Below, piece after piece: positions 47,910 to 64,000 of a DNA stretch of 64,000 nt. Position numbers and translations under genes: made by a program. Source of the DNA: Herbaspirillum sp. WKF16 (GTDB lineage: Bacteria > Pseudomonadota > Gammaproteobacteria > Burkholderiales > Burkholderiaceae_D); the NCBI RefSeq assembly GCF_028993615.1, contig NZ_CP118632.1, positions 1 through 64,000 on the forward strand, written 5' to 3'. Positions within the stretch are counted from its first letter, which is position 1. Every line of letters begins with the position of its first letter. The notes under the pieces were generated by a model. That model ran no database searches and was not told where the DNA came from. It saw only the letters and a list, made by a program, of their open reading frames with translations.

Positions 47910-48422
47910 TCACACTCCGGGTTCGTCGCACAGAGACCGCTTCATGCCGTGATGCGTCGCCTGGAAACCCAGGCTTTCATAGAACCGTCTTGCATCGGCA
48001 CGACGATTGTCGGTCGTCAGCTGAGCGACAAAGCAGCCTTCTGCCTTGCCAATGTCGAACGCCTGTTGAAATAGCTGCTTGCCATAGCCTTGGCCGCGCA
48101 CATTGCCTTTCACCCTGACGCCTTCAATTTGCGCCCTCGAGCGTCCCTGATGCGTCAGGCCATGGATGATGGTGAGTTGCAGCATCCCGACGATTTCGTC
48201 TCCGTTCAGGCCCAATAGAATCCGGTTTCCGGGCTGCCCGCTCATGCGGGCAAACGCTTCTTCATATTGGCCCAAGGAGTGCGCATCGTCCGCTTCGCGC
48301 TGGCGGCCAAGGTCGTCATCCCTGAGCAGGGCGATCAATACGGGGATATCGTCCCTGGTCGCAAAGCGGAAACTGATCGGCTGGCCGGCGTGGGTTTTTG
48401 ATTCCATTTTTCTGTCGCTCAT
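47910..48422 (-). CDS. GNAT-family N-acetyltransferase
   Basis: The 170-residue protein has the acetyl-CoA motif VKGNVRGQGYGKQLF and the GNAT beta-bulge region (VGMLQLTIIHGL). Substrate is unknown. It lies 52 bases downstream of the MocR gene's stop on the same strand, so co-transcription is possible. The first half looks intact. Confidence 0.9.
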   Translation of the reverse strand: MSDRKMESKTHAGQPISFRFATRDDIPVLIALLRDDDLGRQREADDAHSLGQYEEAFARMSGQPGNRILLGLNGDEIVGMLQLTIIHGLTHQGRSRAQIEGVRVKGNVRGQGYGKQLFQQAFDIGKAEGCFVAQLTTDNRRADARRFYESLGFQATHHGMKRSLCDEPGV

Positions 48423-48474
48423 CTGTTATTTAGCAAAGTCCCGGGGGGCCGAGAGAGGATAAGGTCTTTTCAAG

Positions 48475-49905
48475 TTATCCGCCCAGGGCCTGTCTTAGCC
48501 TGGTGGCCAGCTCCATGGCGTCCTTCTCGGTGACGACATTGGCAAAGCCCAGCAAAAACCCCTTCCGGGGTTTGCCCCGCATGTACCAGCGCGATAAGGG
48601 ATGCAACGCCAGTCCGGCCGCATGTGCGCGTTCGGCCAGCATCACGTCGTCTTCATGGCGCGCCAGCTGCAACAGCATGTGCAGCCCGCCCGGTTGAAGT
48701 TCTATTCTTACGCGGTCGCCCAGCATCGCGCTGAATATGCGTTCGGTGAGCATGCGCCGCTCCGCGTACAGCAGGCGCATCTTTTTCAGGTGCCGCGAAA
48801 AATGTCCGCCAGCGATGAAGTCCGCCACGGCTGCCTGATACAGATACGGGCAGCCGGCGTTGATACTGTAGGCGCTCGCCCGGAAGGCGGCGGCAATGCT
48901 CAGCGGCGCCACCACGTAGGCCAGCCGCAGGCCGGGAAACATCGATTTGCTGAAGGTTCCGCTATAGATCACGCGGTCGTTGCGATCCAGGCTCTTCAAC
49001 GCCGGCAGCGGCCGGCCCTGGTAGCGGAATTCGCTGTCGTAGTCGTCTTCAATGACCCAACTGCCCATCTTGCCGGCCCAGTCCAGCAAGGCCATCCGGC
49101 GTTCCAGCGACAAGGTGACGCCGAGCGGGCTCTGATGCGCGGGCGTGACCATTGCAAACCTGGCGGAGGGCGCCGCCGTTAAGCCGCGCTCCACGACCAT
49201 TCCCTGCTCATCCACCGGCACCGGCACCAGTTTCAGGCCTGTATTTTGCAGGAACAACCGCGCCAGGATGTAGCCGGGGTTTTCCAGCCAGAACTCGTCG
49301 CCCGGGCGAGCCAGGCTGCTCAGAATCAGCTCCAGGCTGTTGCGCAGGCCCGAGGTCACGAACACCTGCTCCGGCAGGCAACTCACGCCGCGCGATATCC
49401 CGAGATAAGCGGCGATCTTCTCGCGCAGCCGTTCGTCCCCGGTGGGATCGGGAAACCCCAGGCGTGCCGGTTCGCTGGTGCGAAGCCGATGACCGACGAG
49501 CCGGTTCCAGGTTTTGCGCGGAAACGCATCCAGCGCCGGCAGTCCCATCAACAGGGGCTTGCGCTCCCGCCCTTCGTAGTCGACGGAGGCCGCATGTATT
49601 GCCCCGTTGTTTGCCCTTCGTGGAGCAACGTCGGGCGCCGGCGGCAGGGCCGGCGACACCACGGTGCCGGCCGCCCCCCGTGAGAGCAGATATCCTTCGT
49701 CGATCAGGATGCGATAAGCCAGGTCCACCGTCCCGCAAGAAACCTTCAACTCGGCGGCCAGCGCCCGGATCGACGGCACACGGTCGTTGGAGTGCAGATG
49801 TCGCTGCTCGATCGCGGTCTTGAAGCGACGGCAGATCTGCTGGTATACCGGCAGCGCCAGCGTGCGGTCGACCTGTAAATCCAGGCCCTGGCGAGGTCTT
49901 TTCAT
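48475..49905 (-). CDS. MocR/PdxR-type GntR regulator with aminotransferase domain
   Basis: The 476-residue protein fuses a GntR winged helix (about residues 14-80: PVYQQICRRFKTAIEQ, VPSIRALAAELKVSCGTV) to a class I aminotransferase-like domain with the PLP-lysine block SGTFSKSMFPGLRLAYV. Such proteins sense PLP or amino compounds. It is divergent from an AhpD-like gene with an inverted repeat between them, so it probably controls that gene and sugE. Confidence 0.94.
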   Translation of the reverse strand: MKRPRQGLDLQVDRTLALPVYQQICRRFKTAIEQRHLHSNDRVPSIRALAAELKVSCGTVDLAYRILIDEGYLLSRGAAGTVVSPALPPAPDVAPRRANNGAIHAASVDYEGRERKPLLMGLPALDAFPRKTWNRLVGHRLRTSEPARLGFPDPTGDERLREKIAAYLGISRGVSCLPEQVFVTSGLRNSLELILSSLARPGDEFWLENPGYILARLFLQNTGLKLVPVPVDEQGMVVERGLTAAPSARFAMVTPAHQSPLGVTLSLERRMALLDWAGKMGSWVIEDDYDSEFRYQGRPLPALKSLDRNDRVIYSGTFSKSMFPGLRLAYVVAPLSIAAAFRASAYSINAGCPYLYQAAVADFIAGGHFSRHLKKMRLLYAERRMLTERIFSAMLGDRVRIELQPGGLHMLLQLARHEDDVMLAERAHAAGLALHPLSRWYMRGKPRKGFLLGFANVVTEKDAMELATRLRQALGG

Positions 49906-49926
49906 GTACTGCTCCTTTTTGCATTT

Positions 49927-49950
49927 CTTGTATCTTCTTGCATGTACAAG
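49927..49950. promoter_or_regulatory. Candidate MocR operator
   Basis: CTTGTA-n12-TACAAG forms an inverted repeat in the divergent gap, 22 bases from the MocR start and about 70 from the AhpD-like start. A CTTCTTGCATG direct-repeat-like segment lies in the centre. Confidence 0.45.
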
Positions 49951-50018
49951 ATGTTCGCATACTACCGGTCAAGGAATCCTCATTCCTTCTTTGTAATCGA
50001 CCCATATAGGAGCATCAC

Positions 50019-50453
50019 ATGCAAGCACGCCTCGACTTTCTCGCCGACAAAGGCACCATCAACGCCCTCATGGGGGTGGAAAACCAGGTCGCCAAGGGTT
50101 CGCTGGATGGCCTGCTCAAGGAGCTGGTTCGCCTGCGCGCCTCTCAGATCAACGGCTGCGCATTTTGCCTCGACATGCATTCGAGCGACGCTCGCAAGGC
50201 CGGCGAGTCGGAACGCCGCCTCAACACCGTCTCCGCTTGGCGCGAGACGCCGTTTTTCACCGAGCGCGAGCGCGCGGCGCTGGAATGGACGGAGGCGCTG
50301 ACCCTCGTTTCCAACGATCGCGTGCCCGACGCTGTATGGGAGTCGGTGCGCCCCTACTTCAATGACGCCGAATTGGTCGAACTGACCCTGGTGATCACCG
50401 CCATCAACAGCTGGAATCGCTTCTCCATTGCTTTCCGGAAGATGCCCAGCTGA
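50019..50453 (+). CDS. AhpD/carboxymuconolactone decarboxylase-like protein
   Basis: The 144-residue protein has the alkylhydroperoxidase-like active motif CAFCLDMHSSDARK (C47, C50, H54), suggesting peroxide reduction or redox relay. AGGAG lies at good spacing before the ATG. It is divergent from the MocR regulator and upstream of sugE. Confidence 0.93.
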   Translation: MQARLDFLADKGTINALMGVENQVAKGSLDGLLKELVRLRASQINGCAFCLDMHSSDARKAGESERRLNTVSAWRETPFFTERERAALEWTEALTLVSNDRVPDAVWESVRPYFNDAELVELTLVITAINSWNRFSIAFRKMPS

Positions 50454-50532
50454 TCCGGGCGCGGCTGCGGGCAGGGGCAAGGATGCCGCTGCCCGATTTT
50501 CCTTTGTGATTCATTGAATGGAGTTGCGCGCC

Positions 50533-50847
50533 ATGACTTGGCTAATGCTCGGCATCGCCGGGATTCTTGAGATTGTTTTCGCCCTCAGCATGAAATGGTC
50601 GGAGGGATTCACCCGCCTGTGGCCGGCCGCGCTGACCGTGGCCAGTGGCTTGTCCAGCCTTTTCCTGCTTTCATACACGCTGCGTACCCTGCCGGTGGGT
50701 ACGGCTTACGCAGTATGGACCGGTATCGGCGCGGCCGGCACGGCGATCTTCGGGATGGTGGTGATGGGCGATTCGGCGGCCCCGATGAGGCTGGCTTGTC
50801 TGGGATTGATTCTGGCGGGGGTAATCGGGCTTAAGGCAATGGGATAA
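50533..50847 (+). CDS. sugE: SMR-family exporter, SugE/Gdx-like
   Basis: The 104-residue four-helix exporter carries the essential Glu in GILEIVFALSMKWSEGFTR and the SugE-type LPVGTAYAVWTGIGAAGTA. SugE proteins are now known as guanidinium exporters (Gdx). I chose ATG 50533 with GGAG 10-13 bases upstream. The spacing suggests co-regulation with the AhpD-like gene. Confidence 0.88.
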   Translation: MTWLMLGIAGILEIVFALSMKWSEGFTRLWPAALTVASGLSSLFLLSYTLRTLPVGTAYAVWTGIGAAGTAIFGMVVMGDSAAPMRLACLGLILAGVIGLKAMG

Positions 50848-50880
50848 CGCGGCGGGAGCAGCGCTCTCCCCGCGCCATCC

Positions 50881-51519
50881 TCAGTCGCCCAGCTCGATCA
50901 CCGACGCCAGCGCAATCCCGGCCGGCGCTTCATACATCGCAGCAACCCACGCATGACGCGCATCGCCGGCGCGGGCGTTGAGGGTGTCGGTGACGAAGTT
51001 GATCGAGGCGCGGTCGAGGCTGGCGAAGGGATCGTCCAGCAGGGTCAGCGTGGCGTTGGCGGCGAACGCTGCGGCCAGGTAGACCTTGCGCTTGCTACCG
51101 GTGGAGAGCATGAAGAGCTTTTTCTCCAGGTGCGGCGCCAGCGAGAGGCCGTCCACCAGCGCCGGCAGGCGGCTGTCGTCGAAGGCGGGGAAGCGCTCGC
51201 GCAGCTTGCCGAACAACTCCGGCGGCGTCAGCTGCTCGTAGGCCTCGGTGCGCGGGTCGATGTAGAACACGCGACGGCGGTAGGCTTCGCTGTCTTCATC
51301 CAGGCGGATGCCGTCCAGTTCCAGCACGCCGTCCCTGGCCGGCATCAGTCCCGCCAGCAGTTGCAGCAGCGTGGTCTTGCCGCGGCCGTCGCCACCGCGC
51401 ACCAACGTCACGCCGGCGGGAATGGCGGCCGAGAAATCGGTGAACAGTGCCAGGCCGGGATAGGCGAAGTTGAGGCGGGAGACTTGCAGCAAGGCGGAGG
51501 ATGCGGCGACGGCGCTCAT
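50881..51519 (-). CDS. ABC transporter ATP-binding protein with atypical motifs
   Basis: The 212-residue ATPase has Walker A GGDGRGKTT (42-50), a signature LSTGSKRK (138-145) in place of LSGGQ, and Walker B LTLLDDPFASLD. In the last, the usual catalytic Glu is Asp (D163). No clear Q-loop glutamine is visible. I chose ATG 51519 because homology begins there. It overlaps the start-side small membrane gene by 4 bases. No conventional permease is in the neighbourhood. Confidence 0.85.
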   Translation of the reverse strand: MSAVAASSALLQVSRLNFAYPGLALFTDFSAAIPAGVTLVRGGDGRGKTTLLQLLAGLMPARDGVLELDGIRLDEDSEAYRRRVFYIDPRTEAYEQLTPPELFGKLRERFPAFDDSRLPALVDGLSLAPHLEKKLFMLSTGSKRKVYLAAAFAANATLTLLDDPFASLDRASINFVTDTLNARAGDARHAWVAAMYEAPAGIALASVIELGD

Positions 51520-51755
51520 CGGCGGTGCTGGCGCGCCGCGGCCAGCTTCTCGCGGCGGGCGTCGACCAGCATGGCGATGGCGAAGGCCAGCGGCGGATAG
51601 AGCAGGATCACGGCGGCCCAGTCGTGATCCGACAGGGCCATCAGGCCGGCGATGCAAAGGTCGAGCGCCATCAGGAACATCAGGGGCCAGCCCACCGGGG
51701 CGCCCAGGAAAGTCTTAGGTCTCTTGTTCTTGAAATACAGTGCCATGCCATTCAC
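51516..51755 (-). CDS. Small two-helix membrane protein
   Basis: The 79-residue protein has two predicted membrane segments (WPLMFLMALDLCIAGLMAL and AVILLYPPLAFAIAMLV) and a basic C-terminus. Its stop overlaps the ABC ATPase start (ATGA), so they are translated together. It is not a recognised permease and may be a membrane anchor for the ATPase. M at 51746 is an alternative start. Confidence 0.7.
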   Translation of the reverse strand: MNGMALYFKNKRPKTFLGAPVGWPLMFLMALDLCIAGLMALSDHDWAAVILLYPPLAFAIAMLVDARREKLAAARQHRR

Positions 51756-52084
51756 CGTCGTTGTTCGCGGGCTGGATGCTTGCCGGCGGCCGCGCGCCGG
51801 TGGGCGCGATGACTGCCTGGCAACATTGCCGCGATGGGTTGTCTCCTGTGACGATTATAGAAGATGTAGCCGCGCGCGGCGACGGTGACGGCGCATGTTC
51901 CTCCACGGAAAATCAGAAACCAAACCGGGCTGCCGGGATCACACAGGCAGGAAGCTCTGCGCTTCCCGCCGAATCATCCTCGGCCGCGCGTGCACTTGCG
52001 GCGCGCTGATGCGAACAACAAACAAGAACAGCGTACCGGTTTTCCCTGCGCGGCCTGCCACGTGAACTCATGCAATGGAGCAAC
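51756..52084. other. Divergent intergenic before wecB
   Basis: A 329-base gap between the small membrane gene and wecB. It presumably carries two divergent promoters. No terminator, repeat or RNA was identified. Confidence 0.5.
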
Positions 52085-53236
52085 ATGGACAAGGCCACTC
52101 CCGTGAAGGTGCTGTCGATTTTCGGCACGCGTCCCGAAGCCATCAAGATGGCGCCGCTGGTCAAGGCGCTCAATGCCGAGCCGATGATCGACTCCGTCGT
52201 CTGCGCCACCGGCCAGCATCGCCAGATGTTGAACCAGGTGCTGGAGCTGTTCGACATCAAGGCCGACCGCAACCTCGACGTCATGGTGCCGGACCAGACC
52301 CTGAACGGACTCTCCTCGAAGCTCTTCGCCGAGATCGACAAGCTGCTGGCCGAGACCATGCCCGACCGCGTGCTGGTGCACGGCGACACCACCACCGCCA
52401 TGGTGGCCGCGCTGGCGGCTTTCCATCGCCGCATCCCCGTGGGTCACGTCGAAGCCGGCCTGCGCACGCACGACCTGAACCAGCCCTGGCCGGAAGAGAT
52501 GAACCGCCGCACCATCGACGTGGTGAGCGACCTGATGTTCGCGCCCACCGCGCAGTCGCGCCGCAACCTGGAGGCCGAGAACCTGCAGGGCCGCGTGCTG
52601 GTGACCGGCAATACCGTGATCGACGCGCTGCAGATGTCGGTCGCGCGCATCGAGTCCGACGCCGCGCTGCGCGCGCAGCTCGACGCCAGCCTGCCGCCGC
52701 TGGACCCGCGCCGCAAGCTGCTGCTGGTGACCGGCCACCGGCGCGAGAATTTCGGCGCGGGCTTTGCCCAGATCTGCAGCGCGCTGGGCCGGCTGGCGCG
52801 GCGTGACGACCTGCAGATCGTCTATCCGGTACACCTCAACCCCAACGTGCGCGAGCCGGTGATGCGCGAGCTGTCGGGCCTGCAGCACCTGCACCTGATC
52901 GAGCCGCTGGACTACTTCCAGTTCGTGCGGCTGATGCAGCAGGCGCACGTGATCCTGACCGACTCCGGCGGCGTGCAGGAGGAAGCGCCGGCGCTGGGCA
53001 AGCCGGTGCTGGTGATGCGCGACGTCACCGAGCGCCCCGAGGCGGTGGCCGCCGGCACCGTGCAGCTGGTGGGCACCGACGTCGGCCGCATCGTCGATAC
53101 CGTGGCGACGCTGCAGACCGAAAAGCACCTGTGGAAGAGCTTTGCGCGCAAGCACAATCCCTACGGCGACGGCCGCGCCTGCGGCCGCATCGTCGACGCC
53201 ATCCTCGGCCGCGAGGTGCAAGCCTTCGTGGCCTGA
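52085..53236 (+). CDS. wecB: UDP-N-acetylglucosamine 2-epimerase (non-hydrolysing)
   Basis: The 383-residue enzyme interconverts UDP-GlcNAc and UDP-ManNAc. Diagnostic blocks are FGTRPEAIKMAP, HVEAGLRTHDL, PWPEEMNRR and LTDSGGVQEEAP. I chose ATG 52085 (MDKATPVK) because GGAG lies 6-9 bases upstream. It is upstream of the BcsB-like/nfr genes and would supply ManNAc precursor to the glycan they assemble. Confidence 0.95.
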   Translation: MDKATPVKVLSIFGTRPEAIKMAPLVKALNAEPMIDSVVCATGQHRQMLNQVLELFDIKADRNLDVMVPDQTLNGLSSKLFAEIDKLLAETMPDRVLVHGDTTTAMVAALAAFHRRIPVGHVEAGLRTHDLNQPWPEEMNRRTIDVVSDLMFAPTAQSRRNLEAENLQGRVLVTGNTVIDALQMSVARIESDAALRAQLDASLPPLDPRRKLLLVTGHRRENFGAGFAQICSALGRLARRDDLQIVYPVHLNPNVREPVMRELSGLQHLHLIEPLDYFQFVRLMQQAHVILTDSGGVQEEAPALGKPVLVMRDVTERPEAVAAGTVQLVGTDVGRIVDTVATLQTEKHLWKSFARKHNPYGDGRACGRIVDAILGREVQAFVA

Positions 53237-53797
53237 CTCATCCATTCGCAGCGGGTGAGCGAAGCGGGCGCGGCACGCGCCGCGCATGTGAGACTTCATA
53301 AAATTTTCCGACAAAAGCCGGTTGCGCTTTCCTACAGCCTAAAACATTTTGAAACATCTTTTCGGTCGCGGCGAGGCGTCCCGGGCGGGCGTCGCCGGGG
53401 CCCGCATGCTCGCGACCGTCGCCGTTCCGCGCTCCGTCCTCCGCTTGCGGCAGACACCCTTGATGCGCCTGTCCCGGCCACCTGCGACGAGCATCGATCT
53501 GCCTTTTTATTAAGCAGTGTCGAGGCGCCTCGCTCGTGTCGCGAAAGAGGAAAAACGCCGCATGCCGATCCCGCAGCAGCTCCAGGAAAAATAAAAACCA
53601 CCGCGGAAGTTGCAACCAAATGTAGAGCTGCCACGTCGTAAATCCACGCAACCGAGCAGTAACAAGAAGCTAGGGCCTGGCGCGGTAACCAGACCCAGAC
53701 AACAACCAGCCGCATCCCGTCGCGCGCCATCGCCGCCGAGGGGATCAGCCCGGAGAGCAGCACGGCGGGCTGAGGCACCATCTTGCGACAGGAATTT
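53237..53797. other. Long leader before the BcsB-like gene, no gene seen
   Basis: The 561-base gap separates wecB from the BcsB-like gene. Two AT-richer patches (about 53290-53360 and 53585-53650) break a GC-rich background. No c-di-GMP riboswitch consensus, terminator with U-tract or coding region was recognised. It probably contains a promoter for the downstream four genes. Confidence 0.5.
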
Positions 53798-56080
53798 ATG
53801 ACCGCCCGCCATCCGTCCCACGCTCATCCATTGCCTCAACGCCGCATCTTCCGGCGCGCCCTGCGCACCGCCCTCCTGCTTCCCACCGCCGCCGCGCTGA
53901 TCGCGCCGGCGTGGGCCCATGCCGCCTCCGGCGCCGCCGAGGCCTTCCGCAAGCTGGCCGACGACACCTGGATCCAGCGTCGCGAGACGCTCTCCACGCT
54001 GGGCTTCACCACGCCGCTGGTGCTGGCCTCCAACGACAGCAGCCGCGAGATCTACCTGCCGGTGCCGGCCAGCGTGCCGCTGTCGGACGCCATGCTGAAG
54101 ATGGACGCCAGGTACCTGCGCGCCGACGGCGGCCGGACCACCATGGTGCTGGCGGTGGACACCTTCCCCGCCGCCGCGCGCGCCATGACCGCCGACCAGG
54201 GCGACGCCGGCCTGGCGCTGGGCATCGACGGCGCGCCGCGCGCCAACGGCTTCGTGCGCCTGTCGGTGAACTGGACCACGATGCTCTCCGGCCAGACGCT
54301 GTGCTCCGACCCGCGCACGCCGGGCAACGTGCTGCGCGTGGCGCCGACCTCCGCCTTCAGCTACCGCTACGACAGCCGCGCCATCGGCGACCTGCGCACC
54401 GCCTGGGGCGCGCTGCCGGCGGTGACCTCCATCATGGTCGCCGGCAAGCGCCTCGACCCGCAGTCCTACGACACCGCCTGGCGTATCGGCGTGGCGCTGG
54501 AGCGCGCCGGCAAGCACAGCACCGTGACCGCGCTGCCGCAGGTGGGCGACAAGGTCGACCTGTCGCGCCTGGCGGTGCCCGAGGGCCTGCGCGCCATCCC
54601 AGCCTTTGCCGCGCTGGCCGGCAGCGGCGAGCACGCGCTGAAGGACCAGGCCGAGATCGGCGCGCTGATGGCGATCGGCCAGAACGGCGTCGACGCCCAA
54701 CTGCGCGGCGACATCCTGGTCGGCGACCAGAAGCTGCTGGCCGGCATCGACGCTGCCATGGCCGCGCTGCAACAGCAGATCCAGTCGGCCGCGCCCGACG
54801 CCGCCGCGCCCTTCGCCGAGTGGCGTCGCCGGGTGCAGCCGCAGTCGTCCGGCCTGGATGGCCAGGAGCTGCGCCTGGCCTCGGCCTTCGGCCATCCGGT
54901 GATCCTGGCCGGCGCGCAGGCCGGGCAAGCCTTCGCCACCATGTTCGACAGTTATTGGCGCAACATCAGCGGCGCGCCCAACCTGATCGCGCGCACCGCG
55001 CACAAGCCGGCCACCGGCGAGGATTTCATCCTGCTCAAGAACCTGGGCGGCGCGCCCGGCAGTTTCGATGTGATGAGCCGCGCCGACTGGACCGCCTCCT
55101 TCGACATCGCCGAAGTCGCCAGCGACGGCCGCTTGCCCTCCGAGCTGGTGCTCGACGTCTCGGCCGCGCCCGGCGCCGGGCGCACACCGCCGGTGGCCTC
55201 GGTGTTTTTGAACGACGTGCTGCTGGGCGCCAGGAGCCTGCAGGCCAACGGCCAGCGCGAGCGCATCAGCGCGCGCATCCCGCCGGGCGCGCTGGCGGCG
55301 CAGAACCAGCTGCGCGTGGCCTTCGTGCGCCAACCCTCCAGCGACAATTGCCGCGAGACCCCGCAGGCCTTCCCGGTGGCGGTGCTGGCCTCGAGCCACG
55401 TCAAGCTGGCGCGCGCCAAGGATGAAGCCAATTTCACCGGCATGGTCCGCCGCTTCGCCGCCGGCGCCGAGCTGCTGGTGCCGAAGTCCTACCTCGACGA
55501 CGTTCCCGCCAGCCTGCAGCGTGTGATCATGGTCGCCGCCAGCACCGGCCTGCCGCCCGGCAAGGCCCGGCTGACGGTGGTCGACGACGGTCGCGATGCC
55601 GCGCCGGCCGGCGACTTCCTGGCCTTCGACCTGCCCTTCAAGGACAGTCGCGGCATGGTCCAGGTCAAGGGCAACACGCTGGTGATGAACGATAGCTCGG
55701 CCAAGCCCATGCTGGACGTGAGCGGCTTCGACCGGCTCGGCATCCTGGAGGTGGCCCAGGCCGGCGGCCAGCAGGGCGTGGTGTGGCGCAGCGTGGGCGA
55801 GAACAAGCCCGTGCCCGCCAAGCCCTTCTCGCTGTCCTCGGGCAACGTGGCGGCGGTAGCCGCCACCGGCCTGCTCTCCGAGATCGACACCAACTACAGC
55901 AGCGGCCGCGACTACGTGCAGGACGCGCCGTCGATCACCGTTCCCGACATCCTGTGGTGGGTGGTGCCGCTGTCCATCATCGCGCTCTTCATCCTGCTGC
56001 TGGTGCTGGCCAGCCGCGCGCGCCGCCGCCGCATCGCCGAGCAGGAAGCGGCGAAGCAGAACCAGCGCGAGCGGCCATAA
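53798..56080 (+). CDS. Cellulose-synthase regulatory-subunit (BcsB)-like protein
   Basis: The 760-residue periplasmic protein has a signal peptide (LRTALLLPTAAALIAPAWAHA), a long BcsB-like carbohydrate-binding/jelly-roll region and a single C-terminal transmembrane helix (LWWVVPLSIIALFILLLVLA) with a basic tail. BcsB pairs with a membrane glycosyltransferase to guide the polymer through the periplasm; here the partner would be NfrB, 13 bases downstream. I chose ATG 53798 with AGGA upstream; a TTG at 53783 is less likely. Confidence 0.88.
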   Translation: MTARHPSHAHPLPQRRIFRRALRTALLLPTAAALIAPAWAHAASGAAEAFRKLADDTWIQRRETLSTLGFTTPLVLASNDSSREIYLPVPASVPLSDAMLKMDARYLRADGGRTTMVLAVDTFPAAARAMTADQGDAGLALGIDGAPRANGFVRLSVNWTTMLSGQTLCSDPRTPGNVLRVAPTSAFSYRYDSRAIGDLRTAWGALPAVTSIMVAGKRLDPQSYDTAWRIGVALERAGKHSTVTALPQVGDKVDLSRLAVPEGLRAIPAFAALAGSGEHALKDQAEIGALMAIGQNGVDAQLRGDILVGDQKLLAGIDAAMAALQQQIQSAAPDAAAPFAEWRRRVQPQSSGLDGQELRLASAFGHPVILAGAQAGQAFATMFDSYWRNISGAPNLIARTAHKPATGEDFILLKNLGGAPGSFDVMSRADWTASFDIAEVASDGRLPSELVLDVSAAPGAGRTPPVASVFLNDVLLGARSLQANGQRERISARIPPGALAAQNQLRVAFVRQPSSDNCRETPQAFPVAVLASSHVKLARAKDEANFTGMVRRFAAGAELLVPKSYLDDVPASLQRVIMVAASTGLPPGKARLTVVDDGRDAAPAGDFLAFDLPFKDSRGMVQVKGNTLVMNDSSAKPMLDVSGFDRLGILEVAQAGGQQGVVWRSVGENKPVPAKPFSLSSGNVAAVAATGLLSEIDTNYSSGRDYVQDAPSITVPDILWWVVPLSIIALFILLLVLASRARRRRIAEQEAAKQNQRERP

Positions 56081-56093
56081 GGCGGGGAGCGTC

Positions 56094-58262
56094 ATGTTCG
56101 CCACCGCCAACGCCACGGCCCAGCTCAATTTCCTGTTCGCCAATTACTATGCGGCGCTGGAAATCGCGGCGGCCGTGGTGGCCGTCCTGATCCTGGTCTC
56201 CGCGCTCGATGATTTGTTCTTCGACCTCTGGTACTGGGCGCGCCGCCTCTGGCGCAAGTTCACCATCGAGCGTTCGCGCACGCCGCTGACGGTGGAGCAG
56301 CTGCGCGAGCGCGAGGAGCAGCCCATCGCCATCATGGTGCCGGCCTGGCTGGAGGCCGACGTCATCGCCCAGATGATCGAGGACATGGTGGCCGTGCTCG
56401 ACTACCATCGCTACCACGTCTTCGTCGGCACCTATGCGAACGACCGCGCCACCATCGACGAGGTCGAGCGCATGCGGGTGCGTTACAAGCAGCTGCACCG
56501 GGTCGAGGTGCCGCATGCGGGGCCGACCTGCAAGGCCGATTGCCTGAACTGGGTGGTCAAGGCCATCTTCGCCGCCGAGCGGGAGCTGGGGATGAAGTTC
56601 GCCGGCGTGGTCCTGCACGACAGCGAAGACGTGCTGCATCCGCTGGAGCTGAAGTTCTTCAACTACCTGCTGCCGCGCAAGGACATGATCCAGCTGCCGG
56701 TGGCCTCGCTGGAGCGCGAGTGGTTCGAGCTGGTGGCCGGCACCTACATGGACGAGTTCGCCGAGAGCCACGCCAAGGACATGATGGTGCGCGAGAGCGT
56801 GGCCGGCATGGTGCCCTCGGCCGGCGTGGGCACCTGCTTCTCGCGCAAGGCGCTGAAGGGGCTGATGAGCGAGTCCGGCGGCGAACCCTTCAACGTCGCC
56901 AGCCTGACCGAGGACTACGAGGTCGGCACCAAGCTTTCGCAGATGGGCATGCAGACCATCTTCGCGCGCTTCCCGGTGAAGTTCACGGTGCGCCGCAAGC
57001 CGTGGTTCTTCGGCGACCCCGAGCGCGTCGCCGAGAGCACGCTGGAGATGCCGCTGGCGGTGCGCGAATATTTCCCCGACACCTTCCGCCAGGCCTATCG
57101 CCAGAAGGCGCGCTGGGTCATCGGCATCGGCCTGCAAAGCTGGGAGCAGATGGGCTGGAAGGGATCGCTGGCGGCGCGCTACCTGCTGCTGCACGACCGC
57201 AAGGGCGTCATCACCGCCTTCATCAGCATGCTGGGCTACGTGCTGGCGCTGCAGTTCATCCTGTTCTCGGCGGCCACCACCTTCAACCTGTGGGATGTGT
57301 TCTACCCGCCGCTGCTGGCCGGCGACGGCTGGTGGCGCACCGTGCTGCTCTTGAACGCGCTGGCCATGCTCAACCGCGCCGCGCACCGCTTCTATTTCAC
57401 CGCCGAGCTCTACGGCTGGCGCCACGGCCTGATGGCGCTGCCGCGCATGGTGGTGTCGAACTTCGTCAACTTCATGGCGGTGGCGCGCGCCTGGCGCCTG
57501 TTCCTGTTGTACCTGTTCGCCGGCCGCGCGCTGGCCTGGGACAAGACCATGCACGACTTCCCCACCGAGGGCATCGCCGCCCGCCCGCGCCTGCGCCTGG
57601 GCGACCTGCTCAAGACCTGGCAGGCGGTGGACGAAGCCACGCTCAGCCGCGCGCTGGAGGAGCAGCGCCGCACCCACCTGCCGCTGGGCACGGTGATGGT
57701 CAGCAACGGCTGGCTGGACGAGGAAACCCTGGCCGAGGCGCTGGCCTACCAGGAGCGCCTGCCGCGCGTGAACCTCACGCGCGAGATGGTGGAGCAGCAC
57801 GCCGGCGAGCTGCCGCATGAAGTGAGCGCCCGCTTGCGCGCGCTCTACATCGGCCGGGGCGCGGACGGCCGTCCCGACGCCGGCCTGGCGCGCGTGGCGG
57901 TGGCCAGCGCGCTGAGCGATGAAGGCCGCGCCGAACTGGAGATCGCCCTGGGCCGCGCGCCCTTCGCCATGGTGGCGCGCGAGTCCGAGATCGCTGCCGG
58001 CCTGCGCCTCCTGCGCGGCCAGCGCAACGCCTTCGACCGCGACCAGACCGAAGCCCGCGTGCCGCTGCTGGGCGATCTCCTGATCGCCAGCGGCCTGCTC
58101 TCGCGCGAGACCTTCGACGCCGCCATGCGCCGCTACCGACCCGAGCGCCACGGCCGCATCGGCGACTACCTGGTCAACGAGTCGGTGATCTCGCGCGCCG
58201 CTATCGAGCAAGCCGTTGGCCGCCAGCGCGAGCTGCTGGCCCAGGGCGGGGCATCCGCATGA
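56094..58262 (+). CDS. nfrB: NfrB-like membrane glycosyltransferase with MshEN domain
   Basis: The 722-residue inner-membrane protein is a family-2 glycosyltransferase. It has an N-terminal helix (about 20-40), catalytic HDSED (D176, D179), TED (272-274) and QKARW (Q337, R340, W341), and further membrane helices at about 375-480. The C-terminal 220 residues carry MshEN-type motifs: RLGDLL (501-506), then ALEEQ, LPLGTVM, ALAYQ and RIGDYL, the kind that bind c-di-GMP. This is the E. coli NfrB layout (phage N4 adsorption). It probably polymerises a ManNAc-containing glycan. GGGGAG precedes the ATG. Confidence 0.93.
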   Translation: MFATANATAQLNFLFANYYAALEIAAAVVAVLILVSALDDLFFDLWYWARRLWRKFTIERSRTPLTVEQLREREEQPIAIMVPAWLEADVIAQMIEDMVAVLDYHRYHVFVGTYANDRATIDEVERMRVRYKQLHRVEVPHAGPTCKADCLNWVVKAIFAAERELGMKFAGVVLHDSEDVLHPLELKFFNYLLPRKDMIQLPVASLEREWFELVAGTYMDEFAESHAKDMMVRESVAGMVPSAGVGTCFSRKALKGLMSESGGEPFNVASLTEDYEVGTKLSQMGMQTIFARFPVKFTVRRKPWFFGDPERVAESTLEMPLAVREYFPDTFRQAYRQKARWVIGIGLQSWEQMGWKGSLAARYLLLHDRKGVITAFISMLGYVLALQFILFSAATTFNLWDVFYPPLLAGDGWWRTVLLLNALAMLNRAAHRFYFTAELYGWRHGLMALPRMVVSNFVNFMAVARAWRLFLLYLFAGRALAWDKTMHDFPTEGIAARPRLRLGDLLKTWQAVDEATLSRALEEQRRTHLPLGTVMVSNGWLDEETLAEALAYQERLPRVNLTREMVEQHAGELPHEVSARLRALYIGRGADGRPDAGLARVAVASALSDEGRAELEIALGRAPFAMVARESEIAAGLRLLRGQRNAFDRDQTEARVPLLGDLLIASGLLSRETFDAAMRRYRPERHGRIGDYLVNESVISRAAIEQAVGRQRELLAQGGASA

Positions 58263-58302
58263 GGCCCGCGTCGGGAAACCATGAGAACAAGAACATGACA
58301 AC

Positions 58303-60864
58303 ATGAGAACAACACGACCGCCCTTCTCTTCGACCTCGCTGCTGGCCCTGCTGCTGGCCTCGGCCTGCGCCGCGCAGGCGCAGACGCAGGTGATCCCGCT
58401 GCCCTTGTCCGGGCCCGCCTACCAGCTGGCGCAGGAGGCCTACCGCGCCGCCTCGCGCGGCGACTACCGCCGCGCGCAGGCCCAGCTGCATGAGGCGATC
58501 CGCTTGCGTCCGGATGCGATGGCGCTGCGCCGCCAGCTGCGCGAGACGCGCGAGCTGGAACGCAACGGCGCCGCCCTGCGCAGCGCCGTGCGCGACGCCG
58601 GTTACAACGATGCCGGCGCCGCCTATCGCGCCTATGACGCCAAGCGTTACGAGCAGGCCATCGCGCTGGCGCGCCGCGCCGTGGAGAAGTCGCCGCGCAA
58701 CAACGCCTACTGGCTGCTGCTGGGCAATGCGCTGATCGAAACGCATGCCTATGGCGATGCCGAGGCGGCGCTGGCGCAAGGCGTCGATGCCACCCGCTCC
58801 GGCGACGCCGGGCCGCTGCGCCGTCGCCAGGTCGAGTTGCGCCGCGAGATGGCGGCCATGCAGGCCGCCGCCGTGTTCCGCGCGCAGCGGGACGGCGACC
58901 CCGTTGCAGAACTTGCCGCCGCGCGGCGCGCGGTGGACTATGCGCCGCAAGAGATGCCGTACCGCCTGATGCTGGCCATCGCCCTGCTGCGCAACGAGCG
59001 CCTGCAGGAGGCCGAGGCCGCCGCCGACGAAGCCCGCGCGCGCGACGAATGGCAAGCCGGCCCGCTGCTGCTGCGCGCCTATGCGCGCCTGCGCCTGGGC
59101 CACGCCGAGGCGGCGCGGCAAGACTTCCTGCGCGCGCGCGAGCTGGCGCGCCCCGATGAACAATTGAACGTACGCCTCCTGCAGGCCGACGCCGAACTTG
59201 CCCTGCGCCATCCGCAAGCCGCGCTCGATGCGTTGGCCGATAGCGACGAATTCGTCGGCGCCGAACCGGCGCGCGCGGCGCAGCTGCGGCAGACGCGCCG
59301 GCAGGCGCAGCAAGACCTGGCGCGCTATCGTCGCGCCGCCTTGGCGGCGGCCGACGCCGCGCCATTGTCGGCGCGCGACTTCCCGATCCCTGCGCTGGAC
59401 TGCAACCCGTCCGGCGGCGACAGCGCCAACGCTTGCCGCGTCGTGCCCGGTTCGCTGCCGCGCGACGCCGGCTACGACCGCGCCTTGCTGGCCTACCAGG
59501 CCATGGAGCGCAAGGACTATGCCGTTGCCGCCGACAACGCCGGCCAGGCCGTCGCGCTCTCGCCGGTCAACATGGACTATCGCCTGCTGCAACTGGGCGC
59601 GCTGGAATCCGCGCAGCGCCTGCAAGAGGCCGAGCAGGCCGCGACCGACGCCCTGCGGCAAGGCGCATCGCAGGACGGCAGCCTGCTGGCCCGGCGCGGC
59701 GCCCTGCGCGAGCGCCTGGGCAAGGTCGCCGGCGCGCGCCAGGATTACGCCGACGCGCTGGTGCAAGGCGGCCTGCCGCTGGAGACCGAGATCGACCTGC
59801 TGGCGCGCACCGGTCGCCAGGGCGAGGCGCGCGAGAAATTCATCGCCGGGCGCGACGCCGGCGCGCTCGACGAGCTGGACGACCTGCAGATGGCCTATCT
59901 CGCCGCGCGCGCCGGCGAGAACGGCGTGGCGCAACAATCCTTCATCCGCGCCGATGCCGCCGGCCAGCTGCCCGACAGCGCGCTGGAAGACGCCGGCTAC
60001 ACGGCGCTCCACAACCGCGACGATCGCGGCGCGCTCGACTGGTTCGCCCGCAGCGTCGACGCCGCCGACGAGGGCCGCATCGACAAGGGCGCGCAGCAGC
60101 GTTTCGACACCCGCCGCGCGATTTCCACCATCGACCGCGAGTTCGGCCTCACCGCTTCGCTCTCGCGCAGCGGCGGCGGCCCCAGCGCCGGCAACGGCGG
60201 CCGCCCCGGCGCCTCCAGCCGCGACAGCACCTGGCAGGCCGGCGCCGAGGCGTACTGGCGCCCGTTCGGCTACATGGACGGCCGCACCGTGGAAGTCTTC
60301 GGCCGCGTGTTCCAGACGCTGGACGACAAGTCCGGCGGCCCCACCGGCGCGCCCACCGCGCAGGCCACCGTGGGCGCGCGCTGGAAGCCCTTCGCCAGCC
60401 AGAACATCGTGGTCTCGCTGGGGCGGCTGGTGCCGCTGGGTTCGCAATCCTCGGCCGACTGGCTGGCGCAGCTGGCGTACTCCGACGGCATCGGCACCGA
60501 CCTGCGGGTCGACCGGCCGGCGTGGTGGACTGCGCAGTGGTACGCCGAAGCCGGGCGCTATTTCAGGAATCCGCAGACCTACGGCCTGGCGTCGGCGCAG
60601 GCCGGCCGCAGCTTCCGCCTCGATGAGCTCAGCCCGAACCTGGTGCTGTTCCCGCACCTCACCGTCAACGGCGACTACAACTCGCTCAACGGCAACAAGA
60701 CCGCGTTCGGCGCCGGGCCCGGCGTGAACCTGCGCTACTGGTTCCGGGCCGACCGCACCCACGCGCCGCGCTCCTATCTCGACGTGTCGCTGCAGTACCG
60801 CGTGAAGATCGGCGGCGACGACCGCGCCAAGGGATTCTTCTTCACCACGACGCTGTCCTATTGA
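58303..60864 (+). CDS. nfrA: NfrA-like outer-membrane glycan exporter with TPRs
   Basis: The 853-residue protein has a signal peptide (LLALLLASACAAQAQ), a long TPR-like helical region and a C-terminal NfrA-type beta-barrel domain (about 620-853). The barrel region includes WRPFGYMDGRTVEVFGR and GRLVPLGSQSS, and ends FFFTTTLSY. E. coli NfrA is the outer-membrane receptor of phage N4 and the probable export pore of the same glycan. It lies 40 bases after nfrB. The ribosome-binding site is weak; the leader contains repeated ATGAGAACAA-like sequence. Confidence 0.92.
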   Translation: MRTTRPPFSSTSLLALLLASACAAQAQTQVIPLPLSGPAYQLAQEAYRAASRGDYRRAQAQLHEAIRLRPDAMALRRQLRETRELERNGAALRSAVRDAGYNDAGAAYRAYDAKRYEQAIALARRAVEKSPRNNAYWLLLGNALIETHAYGDAEAALAQGVDATRSGDAGPLRRRQVELRREMAAMQAAAVFRAQRDGDPVAELAAARRAVDYAPQEMPYRLMLAIALLRNERLQEAEAAADEARARDEWQAGPLLLRAYARLRLGHAEAARQDFLRARELARPDEQLNVRLLQADAELALRHPQAALDALADSDEFVGAEPARAAQLRQTRRQAQQDLARYRRAALAAADAAPLSARDFPIPALDCNPSGGDSANACRVVPGSLPRDAGYDRALLAYQAMERKDYAVAADNAGQAVALSPVNMDYRLLQLGALESAQRLQEAEQAATDALRQGASQDGSLLARRGALRERLGKVAGARQDYADALVQGGLPLETEIDLLARTGRQGEAREKFIAGRDAGALDELDDLQMAYLAARAGENGVAQQSFIRADAAGQLPDSALEDAGYTALHNRDDRGALDWFARSVDAADEGRIDKGAQQRFDTRRAISTIDREFGLTASLSRSGGGPSAGNGGRPGASSRDSTWQAGAEAYWRPFGYMDGRTVEVFGRVFQTLDDKSGGPTGAPTAQATVGARWKPFASQNIVVSLGRLVPLGSQSSADWLAQLAYSDGIGTDLRVDRPAWWTAQWYAEAGRYFRNPQTYGLASAQAGRSFRLDELSPNLVLFPHLTVNGDYNSLNGNKTAFGAGPGVNLRYWFRADRTHAPRSYLDVSLQYRVKIGGDDRAKGFFFTTTLSY

Positions 60865-60892
60865 TCCCGCAGGTTCCTTCCGGAGGCCGGGT

Positions 60893-61762
60893 TTGGATGT
60901 CATCTTTCAACGTCTGCGCAGCGCCGCGCTGGCCGTGATCACGGCCTCGCTGCTGGCCGCCTGCGCCGGCTGCCATCCCTTCGGCGACGCCGATCGGGCG
61001 CCGGTGCGGGTGGATGGCGTGGTATGGCAGCCCGACAATGCCACCGCGCAGCCGCAGGGCAAATGGCAGCAGCTGGGCGCGCGTGAATTGCTGGTGCAGT
61101 GGAGCGCGGTGGACGGCGTCGCCTTCGTCCCAGGCAGCAAGATGCCGCCCGCGCCGCGCATGCCCGACTGGGAGCGCATCGCGCGCGAGCCGTGGGCGCG
61201 CGAGGTGATCCTCGGGCTGGCCGGCCGCTTCGACGAAAAGGCCGCCCGCGCCGGCATCGAACAACTGGTGGAAGAGTCGGCCGAGCTGGCCAGGCTGCCT
61301 ACGCCGCTGCATGTGACGGGCTGGTATTTCCCGGTGGAGATCGACCCCACCTGGGCCGACGCGCCGCGCCTGGGCGCGTTGCTGGCCAGGCTGCCGCGGC
61401 CGCTCTGGATCACCGTCTACGACAGCGCCAACCTCGGTCCCGACGCGCTGGCCGACGGCCTGGCGAAGTGGTTGCCGCCGGATGTGGGCGTGTTCTTCCA
61501 GGACGGCGTCGGCGTCTACGCGCGCGAGCCGCGCATCGCCCTGCATTACGCCGACGTGCTCTCCCAGCGCCTGGGCCGCGCGCGCGTGCGCATCATCGCC
61601 GAGGCCTTCCGGCCCATGCCCGGCGGCGGCTTTCGCAGCGCCACCGCCGACGAGATCCGGCCGCAGGTGAATACCTATCGCGGCTACCGCGTCTCCATCT
61701 TCGACGGGCCGCACTATTTGCCGGATGGCCTGGTGGAGGCGCTGGCGCGGCGCAAGGATTGA
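60893..61762 (+). CDS. YbcH-like lipoprotein of the nfr cluster
   Basis: The 289-residue protein starts at TTG 60893, supported by a perfect GGAGG six bases upstream. It has a lipobox LLAAC with C24. The mature part looks like a TIM-barrel glycoside-hydrolase-like domain (WYFPVEIDPTWADA, VTGWYFPVE, FFQDGVGVY). By position it corresponds to E. coli YbcH, encoded with nfrAB. A role in trimming or editing the glycan is inferred. It ends 4 bases before the convergent HxlR stop. Confidence 0.8.
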   Translation: MDVIFQRLRSAALAVITASLLAACAGCHPFGDADRAPVRVDGVVWQPDNATAQPQGKWQQLGARELLVQWSAVDGVAFVPGSKMPPAPRMPDWERIAREPWAREVILGLAGRFDEKAARAGIEQLVEESAELARLPTPLHVTGWYFPVEIDPTWADAPRLGALLARLPRPLWITVYDSANLGPDALADGLAKWLPPDVGVFFQDGVGVYAREPRIALHYADVLSQRLGRARVRIIAEAFRPMPGGGFRSATADEIRPQVNTYRGYRVSIFDGPHYLPDGLVEALARRKD

Positions 61763-61766
61763 CGGC

Positions 61767-62099
61767 TCAGGCGTCCTGGGCGGTAGCGCGCTGCTTGAGC
61801 CACATCCCGAAATCCTGGAAGGCATCGACCAGCGGCCGCAGGCGGCGGCCGTCTTCGGTCAGCGCGTATTCCACGCGCGGCGGCACTTCGGGGTAGACCG
61901 TGCGGCTGATCATTCCGCTTTGTTCGAGCGCGCGCAGGTCCAGCGTCAGCATGCGCTGCGAGATGGTGGGCAGATGGCGGCGCAGTTCGTTGAAGCGCTT
62001 GGGCCCGTCCAGCAGGAACCACACCAGCAAGAGGCGCCAGCGCCCGCCCAGCAGGCGCATGGCTTCTTCCACGGGGCAACCCGACACGTTGTCTTTCAC
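61767..62099 (-). CDS. HxlR-family transcriptional regulator
   Basis: The 110-residue winged-helix protein shows the HxlR blocks CPVEEAMRLLGGRWRLLLVWFL and RFNELRRHLPTISQRMLTLDL. I chose GTG 62099 with GGAG 6-9 bases upstream; a TTG at 62117 lies against the operator-like palindrome. It is divergent from a glutathione-S-transferase gene, which it probably represses. The N-terminal Cys (in GCPVEE) could be redox-sensing. Confidence 0.93.
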   Translation of the reverse strand: MKDNVSGCPVEEAMRLLGGRWRLLLVWFLLDGPKRFNELRRHLPTISQRMLTLDLRALEQSGMISRTVYPEVPPRVEYALTEDGRRLRPLVDAFQDFGMWLKQRATAQDA

Positions 62100-62118
62100 T
62101 TCGCTCTCCGGTAACAAA

Positions 62119-62137
62119 TTTGTGCCTCGGGCACAAA
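62119..62137. promoter_or_regulatory. HxlR operator palindrome
   Basis: A perfect palindrome TTTGTGCC-TCG-GGCACAAA lies in the divergent hxlR-gst gap, 20 bases from the HxlR start. Arm symmetry and position strongly suggest the regulator's site. Confidence 0.7.
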
Positions 62138-62206
62138 ATTCTGCGTTCTTGCGCGCTTGCCTGGCGGTCGACAGAATACCGGCTTTTCCCCCGACGAGAG
62201 CGCCGC

Positions 62207-62821
62207 ATGACTTCTTCCCTCACGCTGTACTACGCCCCGCATACCTGTTCGCTGTCGCCGCACATCGTGCTGCGCGAGCTCGGCCTGCCCTTCACGCTGG
62301 TGAAGGTCGACAACAAGAGCAAGCGCACCGAGCACGGCGCGGATTTCCTCGCGATCAATCCCAAGGGCTATGTCGCCGCGCTGCAGCTGGCCGACGGCCG
62401 CGTGCTGACCGAGGGGCCGGCGATCCTGCAATGCCTGGCCGATCTGCGGCCCGAAGCAGGGCTGGCGCCACCGGCCGGCAGCTGGGAGCGGCTGCGCCTG
62501 CAGGAGATGCTGAGCTTCATCACCAGCGAGCTGCATGGCGGCATCGCCCAGCTGTTCAACGCGGCCTTCGATGAGAGCGTGAAGGCGGTGTTCCGCGAGC
62601 GCCTGTTCAAGCGCATCGCCTATGTGGAGCAGGTATTGCAGGCGCAGCCCTGGCTGCTGGGCGAGGCCTTCGGCGTGGCCGATGCCTACCTGTTCACGGT
62701 GCTGGGCTGGCTGCGCTTCTTCGATATCGGGCTGCGGCAATGGCCGGCCGTGGCGCGGCATACGGATGCGGTGGCGCAGCGCCCATCGGTACAGGCCGCG
62801 CTGGCGGCGGAAGCGCAATAA
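62207..62821 (+). CDS. Glutathione S-transferase
   Basis: The 204-residue protein has an N-terminal thioredoxin-like domain with LYYAPHTCSLSPHIVLREL and the conserved EGPAILQ glutathione-binding block, and an all-helical C-terminal domain. It resembles E. coli GstA and beta-class enzymes, with the cysteine at position 13. It probably conjugates or reduces electrophiles, and is divergent from its likely HxlR repressor. ATG 62207 fits the family start. Confidence 0.93.
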   Translation: MTSSLTLYYAPHTCSLSPHIVLRELGLPFTLVKVDNKSKRTEHGADFLAINPKGYVAALQLADGRVLTEGPAILQCLADLRPEAGLAPPAGSWERLRLQEMLSFITSELHGGIAQLFNAAFDESVKAVFRERLFKRIAYVEQVLQAQPWLLGEAFGVADAYLFTVLGWLRFFDIGLRQWPAVARHTDAVAQRPSVQAALAAEAQ

Positions 62822-62854
62822 AAAAATGCCGCCCGGCTGGCGCCGGACGGCATT
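62822..62854 (-). terminator. Terminator hairpin after gst, U-tract on the minus strand
   Basis: A 13-bp stem with one mismatch (AATGCCGCCCGGC/GCCGGACGGCATT, loop TGGC) directly follows the gst stop. The A-run at 62820-62826 gives a U-tract only for leftward transcription, so it best terminates the minus-strand gene to the right. It may also stall gst. The rest of 62855-63194 holds no supported gene. Confidence 0.65.
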
Positions 62855-63194
62855 GAAGCAAACCTCGCTCGTGCGCGGCCAGACCGTGGCCGCCACGCCG
62901 GCGCATCCACTGCGTCGGCGCGGAGAAAAAACAGCTTCTCATCTCCTTGACCCCTGAGTGCGTGAAACGGCTCAGTTTGGGTATTTGCAGCAGCCCGCCG
63001 CGCAATAGCGGTGGGAGCCGGGGTGAGCGTGCCGTGATCAGATCCTGCCTTCGCCGAGATAAGCCTTTGGTTCAGGCCGGTCTTGCTGAGCCAAATGAAA
63101 AGTTCTTTTAAAACAGACGTTTAGAGAGGATTTTCATTTTTTTGGGGTGTGGATTTGGCTCGACAATGCGAGATAGGCGCCGTTTTGCGCCAAA

Positions 63195-64000
63195 TCAGGT
63201 GACGCGATACCGGGTTCCATTTCGTATGCCTTCTCGCGCCAGGTTGCCGTTTTCGACCAATTGATCCAGCGCTCTGCGCACGCGCGAGCGAGGGATTTCC
63301 GCACCGATTCGTTGGTGAATGTCGCCGATCTTGGTATTTGGATATCGTGCGACATCTTCCACAATCAATGCCAATAGCCTGTGGGGTTCTATGCGTTTGA
63401 GAGTGGTCCCCGACGGGAAGTCCAGATTACGCAATAACTCGGGATCAACGAAGTAGCGTGTGGCTTGCGTCCGTCCGGCGCTGCGGATCAGTTGCCACTC
63501 GAGTGGCCGTTTGATCCAGAGTTGAACCGCGTCGATGGTAGGTAATTCCAGTGCCCGGCACATCTCGCGGCCGCTCAAAGCCTCATGCTGGGCCAGCAGG
63601 CCGAGTACGATCCGCTCACGTTGCGTAAGTTGATAGGCCTGATCGGCTTTGGCGATGAAATCGATGACCTGGGGTTGGATGATTCGCCTACCCACGGCGA
63701 CGCATACGCGTTCGTGCGTCTCCGTCAGATCCGGGACCGGGCGTCCTTGCGACAGCAGGACTTCGTACATCTTGCCGAAGCCGCTGCCCTCTCTTTCCAT
63801 CAATTTAAGATCATGGAAAAGTCGTGCAAGGTGATCGTTGCGCCGTACGGTCATATGCAACACGTTTTGCGGCGTGACGCCTAACGGAAGCGGCCCGGGG
63901 TTGACGACTTCAAGCCTGTCCGGATGCAGGTTCAGAAAGATGTCTCCGCGTTGCGTATAGGGGCGATGCACGAGCGCATTGACCAGAAGTTCGCGTACTA
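63195..64000 (-). CDS. Schlafen AlbA_2-type ATP-binding/regulatory protein, C-terminal part
   Basis: The gene runs off the right edge of the window, so only its C-terminal about 268 residues are seen. The block RELLVNALVHRPYTQRGD, reading in from the edge, and NPGPLPLGVTPQNVLH with EREGSGFGKMYE are typical of the ATP-binding half of AlbA_2/RecG-like putative transcription regulators. The final 130 residues contain two winged-helix-like segments (TQRERIVLGLLAQHEAL; IGDIHQRIGAEIPRSRVRRAL). Its 5' end, and hence start and full domain content, is unknown. Confidence 0.8.
   Translation of the reverse strand, partial: VRELLVNALVHRPYTQRGDIFLNLHPDRLEVVNPGPLPLGVTPQNVLHMTVRRNDHLARLFHDLKLMEREGSGFGKMYEVLLSQGRPVPDLTETHERVCVAVGRRIIQPQVIDFIAKADQAYQLTQRERIVLGLLAQHEALSGREMCRALELPTIDAVQLWIKRPLEWQLIRSAGRTQATRYFVDPELLRNLDFPSGTTLKRIEPHRLLALIVEDVARYPNTKIGDIHQRIGAEIPRSRVRRALDQLVENGNLAREGIRNGTRYRVT

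Follow-up and report, generated by a model that had tools for sequence, protein, structure and literature searches.

Introduction

The E. coli genetics behind the pathway model for the NGR exopolysaccharide has been presented in two reports (PMC8669472, PMC8669469). One of them mentions a cluster in Achromobacter xylosoxidans, where nfrA, nfrB and wecB are found together with a BcsB homologue and with homologues of O-acetyltransferases (Sellner 2021, PMC8669472). The other describes a linked WecB where the genome encodes no other one, as well as acetylation genes in some loci (Junkermeier 2021, PMC8669469). It has recently been reported for the PGR locus of Acinetobacter that pgrD, encoding a BcsB homologue, is required for adsorption of the phage StAb3, and that a point mutant of pgrF, encoding a WecB homologue, is resistant to StAb3 and regains susceptibility upon complementation (2025, PMC12507263). 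The gene combination has been known since 2021, and the evidence that it acts in phage adsorption came from Acinetobacter in 2025.

Here we describe a locus of this kind in Herbaspirillum sp. WKF16, whose genome consists of one contig of 4,986,464 bases. The window, by which we mean the whole stretch of DNA analysed, comprises 64,000 nucleotides. We conclude with considerable confidence that the locus belongs to the NGR/PGR family of exopolysaccharide operons activated by c-di-GMP, and it is very likely a well-conserved copy of a known kind of operon, not a new assembly. Among the papers listed, judged by title and the first part of the abstract, none dealt with this locus in Herbaspirillum or with a split of NfrB lineages. 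Four findings are added here: BcsB accompanies a single NfrB lineage almost throughout, the locus is scattered across Herbaspirillum and probably mobile, wecB can be encoded away from the locus, and the YbcH-like protein has conserved acidic residues.

Gene content and layout of the locus

Five open reading frames, all on the plus strand, were confirmed at 52085-61762 among the ORFs of the window:

52085..53236, + strand: wecB, non-hydrolysing UDP-GlcNAc 2-epimerase (TIGR00236, 465.7 bits against a cut-off of 210.15; PF02350, 391.6 bits)
53237..53797, no strand: intergenic stretch that separates wecB from the bcsB-like gene, of similar length in L133 and L135, both close relatives
53798..56080, + strand: BcsB-like periplasmic subunit (PF03170, 30 bits)
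56094..58262, + strand: NfrB-like processive GT2 synthase (NF012033, PRK15489, 1036.9 bits against a cut-off of 537; MshEN c-di-GMP domain, NF053729, 85.6 bits)
58303..60864, + strand: NfrA-like outer-membrane exporter with TPR repeats (PF13283, NfrA_C, 187 bits; TPR_19, 27.9 bits)
60893..61762, + strand: YbcH-like, probable lipoprotein, DUF4434-type, TTG start (NF007404, 32.2 bits)

Frames and family matches agree with the initial annotation, which had seen five co-directional genes here (wecB, bcsB-like, nfrB-like, nfrA and ybcH-like). They also bear out its view that the whole pathway lies in one place, insofar as the gene content expected of an NGR-type, ManNAc-dependent and c-di-GMP-responsive system is present. 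By their coordinates, bcsB and nfrB are separated by 13 bases, nfrB and nfrA by 40, and nfrA and ybcH by 28. From wecB to the bcsB-like gene there is a gap of 561 bases, many other loci being tighter at this point, and it may hold an internal promoter or leader; no Rfam family reached its gathering score within 48000-64000, this gap included. A diguanylate cyclase linked to the operon was not detected, as none of the 44 GGDEF matches of the genome lies inside the window, and acetylation genes (O-acetyltransferase, AlgF/AlgX-like, MBOAT) were not found in the window.

The NfrB-like protein carries the DxD, TED and QxxRW motifs of the GT2 synthase of NGR/PGR operons (HDSED from residue 175, TED at 272-274, QKARW from 337), followed by the MshEN c-di-GMP domain, which starts at about residue 499. 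A profile built from seven sequences matched the MshEN domains of PilF (6f8l) and MshE (5htl) in the PDB. Against NF008411, the model named NfrB and of the E. coli type, the protein scored 622.2 bits, below the curated cut-off of 1170; E. coli was the only positive of this model among 14 controls. The adjoining gene encodes an NfrA-type TPR outer-membrane exporter, as in other operons of the family. The profile searches proposed earlier for NfrB and NfrA thus succeeded with NF012033 and PF13283, while the strict cut-offs of NF008411 (NfrB) and NF007404 (YbcH) were not reached.

WecB, linked or unlinked, was present in all nine genus carriers examined; the fragmented genome of the tenth carrier, G430, was left out of this and of the locus comparison. 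The genome of the window holds two further WecB-family genes above the cut-off (323.3 and 229.8 bits). Hence, UDP-ManNAc may also come from genes other than the linked wecB. These two genes (L168:8091-9206 and L168:15026-16288) lie about 6 kb apart near 478 and 485 kb, possibly within another polysaccharide cluster.

The YbcH-like protein

With NF007404, the YbcH-like protein remained far below the curated cut-off of 344 and does not count as an equivalog. The match to DUF4434 was also below threshold (15.7 bits, cut-off 30), and 30 of the 36 members of alignment A4 matched this family at E 0.01 or better, the protein of the window being an exception. The relationship to YbcH rests mainly on an alignment of 16 hand-picked sequences, five from window-type loci, nine from E. 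coli-type loci and two unplaced, where four acidic residues (E149, D151, D204 and E237 in window numbering) are invariant in all 16 and are thereby shared with the YbcH of E. coli-type nfr loci. This points to a distant homologue of YbcH, and the conserved acidic residues suggest a glycosidase-type active site in a protein that probably has a glycosidase fold. The N-terminus contains LLAAC with the cysteine at position 24, which we take to be a lipobox motif; the protein is probably a lipoprotein.

The BcsB-like subunit

BcsB proteins fold into two carbohydrate-binding/flavodoxin-like repeats. The candidate of the window passed the gathering cut-off of PF03170 (21 bits), yet its match spans only 72 residues, and NCBIfam gave no match. 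The assignment is therefore weak, as it depends on a short and highly divergent match. Within alignment A3, 42 of the 44 members, the window included, matched PF03170 at E 0.01 or better, and all 44 have a C-terminal hydrophobic segment, which in the protein of the window is a membrane anchor at residues 718-736. The N-terminus resembles a signal peptide by eye, with the start taken at the ATG at 53798. Compared with solved structures by sequence, the 44-sequence profile found no solved BcsB.

The same genome encodes a canonical BcsB at C1:1180963 (265.5 bits), adjoining a GT2/PilZ-like frame, and the BcsB-like profile matched this protein with E 4.2e-6 over 125 columns. Since a genome-wide search with PF03170 missed the window's own bcsB-like gene, the negatives of that search were set aside and the A3 profile was used instead. 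When the BcsB-like protein alone served as query against the class, 7 of 369 genomes matched, namely the own genome, G702 with a strong match, and five with weak partial matches at 52-88 bits.

Conservation of the neighbourhood

Scanning named genomes with the NfrB alignment gave at least 578 relatives, the best 80 of which were retained; these are the most window-like loci and therefore favour the window's lineage. Among these best 80 of at least 578 loci, bcsB was found in 76, wecB in 68, nfrA in 74, ybcH in 61, and all five genes in 54. When only the 65 fully flanked loci of this set are counted, the numbers are 63, 58, 62 and 54, with all five genes in 49. The conservation of bcsB and wecB beside nfrAB, named as a check by the initial annotation, is confirmed for this set, which includes Pseudomonas, Stenotrophomonas, Burkholderiales and Rhizobiales. 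AlgF- or AlgX-like genes occur in 25 and an MBOAT gene in 12 of these best 80 of at least 578 loci.

Two Collimonas loci (L072 and L073, the latter with less than 4 kb of sequence upstream of nfrB) have an NfrB of the window lineage with wecB, nfrA and ybcH and without bcsB at the locus. It follows that bcsB is dispensable and that its loss occurs. In two loci from Ramlibacter MAGs, all four neighbours are absent from the stretch that is available.

Several loci deviate in the state of their genes. For Marinicella sp. W31 (L089), nfrB and ybcH are whole, but each of wecB, bcsB and nfrA is broken into three pieces that lie in different frames, which may reflect assembly errors or decay. In Stenotrophomonas geniculata (L098) and in G702 (L198), two overlapping frames make up the bcsB-like gene, which lies next to wecB, nfrB and nfrA. 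The NfrB frames of L145, L146 and L147, of the window lineage, have about 570-580 residues, end soon after the first MshEN motif and are without the last part of the C-terminal region. Distant NfrB relatives of about 460-530 residues (L202-L211) end before the MshEN region of the model; they belong to one other family of the phylum, and eight of nine from this family have none of the four neighbours in the fetched stretch.

BcsB follows one lineage of NfrB

A strong NfrB match was present in 16 of 399 genomes of the order, and the window type is rare, with eight of the 399, the own genome included. Seven of these eight have bcsB adjoining nfrB; the contig of the remaining one breaks off within nfrB. 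The other eight NfrB genomes, seven of which fall in the E. coli-type clade with G355 unplaced, have no bcsB at the locus and have wecB there in every case. The model scores of the relatives scanned agree with this division: three window-type relatives scored 952-1160 bits with NF012033, and two of the six other-type relatives scanned were above the cut-off of NF008411. At the level of the phylum, NfrB was matched in 24 of 398 genomes; bcsB adjoins nfrB in six of the 24, and those six are of the window type.

The BcsB profile was run on 30 of the 35 distinct order and phylum genomes with an NfrB match. It matched nine of the ten window-type genomes, the tenth being the cut contig, and two of the 20 others, an orphan in G291 and a weaker match in G1074 on a contig apart from nfrB. 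The orphan, a window-type BcsB-like gene at L167:8001-10250 (G291:C1:2621015-2623126, 833 bits), adjoins secA without a neighbouring nfrB, and an E. coli-type nfr locus lies elsewhere in that genome.

Moreover, we found the same pattern in a tree of 60 rows. The window lineage comprises 46 rows, 42 of them with bcsB (support 100/100), and the other 14 rows, the E. coli type included, are without bcsB at the locus; the branch between the two has a length of 1.30 and a support of 100/100. On this tree bcsB needs four changes, against a mean of 15.7 after shuffling. The rows were partly chosen: 29 of 80 named loci were picked by hand, four loci without bcsB were included deliberately, and of 72 rows, 12 that were long, uncertain or cut were removed, all of them lacking bcsB. 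The term E. coli type here means likeness to NF008411, as E. coli's own NfrB is no row of the tree.

Judged from these sequences, BcsB is in near-complete association with one NfrB lineage, where its presence is the usual state. The statement that an E. coli-like pathway had acquired BcsB at this locus is misleading, as bcsB tracks a whole lineage of NfrB. A gain in the own genome alone was rejected on three grounds: the 76 loci with bcsB among the best 80 of at least 578, the relatives of the order, and the tree.

The association may also be read as a sign that the lineage with BcsB represents another kind of two-subunit synthase, one whose polymer differs (it could, for example, be mixed or lack ManNAc) and which resembles the E. 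coli system only superficially. The long and fully supported branch, the score of the window's NfrB-like protein under the NfrB equivalog cut-off and the tracking of the lineage by BcsB all fit this reading. However, wecB is linked in both NfrB lineages, the YbcH-like protein retains the same invariant acidic residues, and a ManNAc glycan has been proposed in the published account of the Acinetobacter work (PMC12507263). On balance, we regard a different polymer as unlikely, though worth keeping in mind beside membership in the NGR/PGR family.

Distribution and history in Herbaspirillum

The bcsB-like gene is patchy in the genus, occurring in 10 of 34 genomes. When 25 genus genomes were searched for both genes, six had NfrB and the BcsB-like protein together and the other 19 had neither, and the two genes are adjacent in all eight relatives fetched. 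Six of these eight have wecB at the locus. The other two, G007 and G021, carry an unlinked WecB with 58% and 56% identity to that of the window (509.5 and 518.9 bits); the contig of G021 ends inside nfrA, before any ybcH. G001 and G014 represent a different sub-lineage with acetylation genes.

The cluster has a GC content of 0.704, against 0.615 in the rest of the window, and its GC3 is 0.897-0.943, against 0.632-0.874 in 15 hand-picked genes of the window. The same ABC-transporter gene adjoins the cluster in five of nine genomes, the window included, and lies elsewhere in the genome in the other four. Around this gene, within 12-14 kb, neither the cluster nor the window's downstream genes were found in any of eight non-carriers, fetched out of the 18 that possess it. 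The rare and patchy occurrence, the high GC content and the species-variable placement make horizontal spread probable, which is the simplest reading of these sequences.

Patchiness in the genus and the absence of wecB from the locus in two relatives would also be expected of a locus that is decaying and silent. We consider this highly improbable, given that the five frames are intact, that the catalytic and c-di-GMP motifs are retained, and that the glycosyltransferase alignment is well conserved. Another reading, that the BcsB-like protein works with the genome's regular cellulose synthase and has its place here by accident, could draw on the canonical BcsB beside its GT2/PilZ-like frame and on the orphan of G291, and it was rejected as hardly credible on the co-occurrence of NfrB and BcsB-like protein in the genus and their adjacency in the fetched relatives.

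Proposed pathway

Gene content, motifs, conservation and lineage all place the locus among the c-di-GMP-activated NGR/PGR operons. On the model of the E. coli and Acinetobacter work, from which substrate, activation, export and phage use are carried over, WecB would supply UDP-ManNAc. The BcsB-like subunit, with its C-terminal helix as anchor, may pair with the synthase and guide the chain across the periplasm. Export through the outer membrane would be the task of NfrA, and the YbcH-like lipoprotein might bind or trim the chain. The product may differ from known glycans and act as a point of phage entry, as the initial annotation suggested.

A wider picture can be drawn tentatively, and we would not yet lean on it. 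It would comprise at least two NfrB lineages, one free of BcsB and one usually paired with a divergent BcsB, some members with alginate-type acetylation. The paired form would move between bacteria as a cassette and provide phages with a glycan receptor in different classes of proteobacteria; a YbcH-type glycosidase would adjust the length of its chains.

Comparison with known systems

In the BcsA-BcsB cellulose synthase, a GT2 synthase works with a periplasmic, C-terminally anchored partner. The synthase of the window differs in being apparently under MshEN rather than PilZ control, and its BcsB-like partner is highly divergent.

The PGR locus of Acinetobacter baumannii (pgrA-pgrG) resembles the window, going by its published description and not by sequence, in having NfrB-, BcsB- and WecB-like genes and an outer-membrane porin gene in one locus (PMC12507263). 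PgrE, said there to resemble the C-terminus of PgaB, is a plausible counterpart of the YbcH-like protein. PGR also has PgrA, described as diguanylate-cyclase-like without a GGDEF motif; the window has no GGDEF match. The BcsB-containing form of NGR/PGR occurs in Burkholderiales, Pseudomonas, Stenotrophomonas and Rhizobiales, and the phage-receptor findings from Acinetobacter may therefore apply across many genera.

The Achromobacter xylosoxidans cluster, as outlined in PMC8669472, shares the same four gene types and comes from a betaproteobacterium, as does the window's genus; it differs from the window by its O-acetyltransferase homologues. The E. coli NGR genes nfrBA-ybcH, as presented in PMC8669469, share an NfrB with an MshEN domain, NfrA, YbcH and the dependence on WecB. 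They differ by an NfrB of the NF008411 type, by an operon described without bcsB, and by the position of wecB in the ECA operon. The split between the NfrB lineages offers a testable explanation of how E. coli can do without BcsB.
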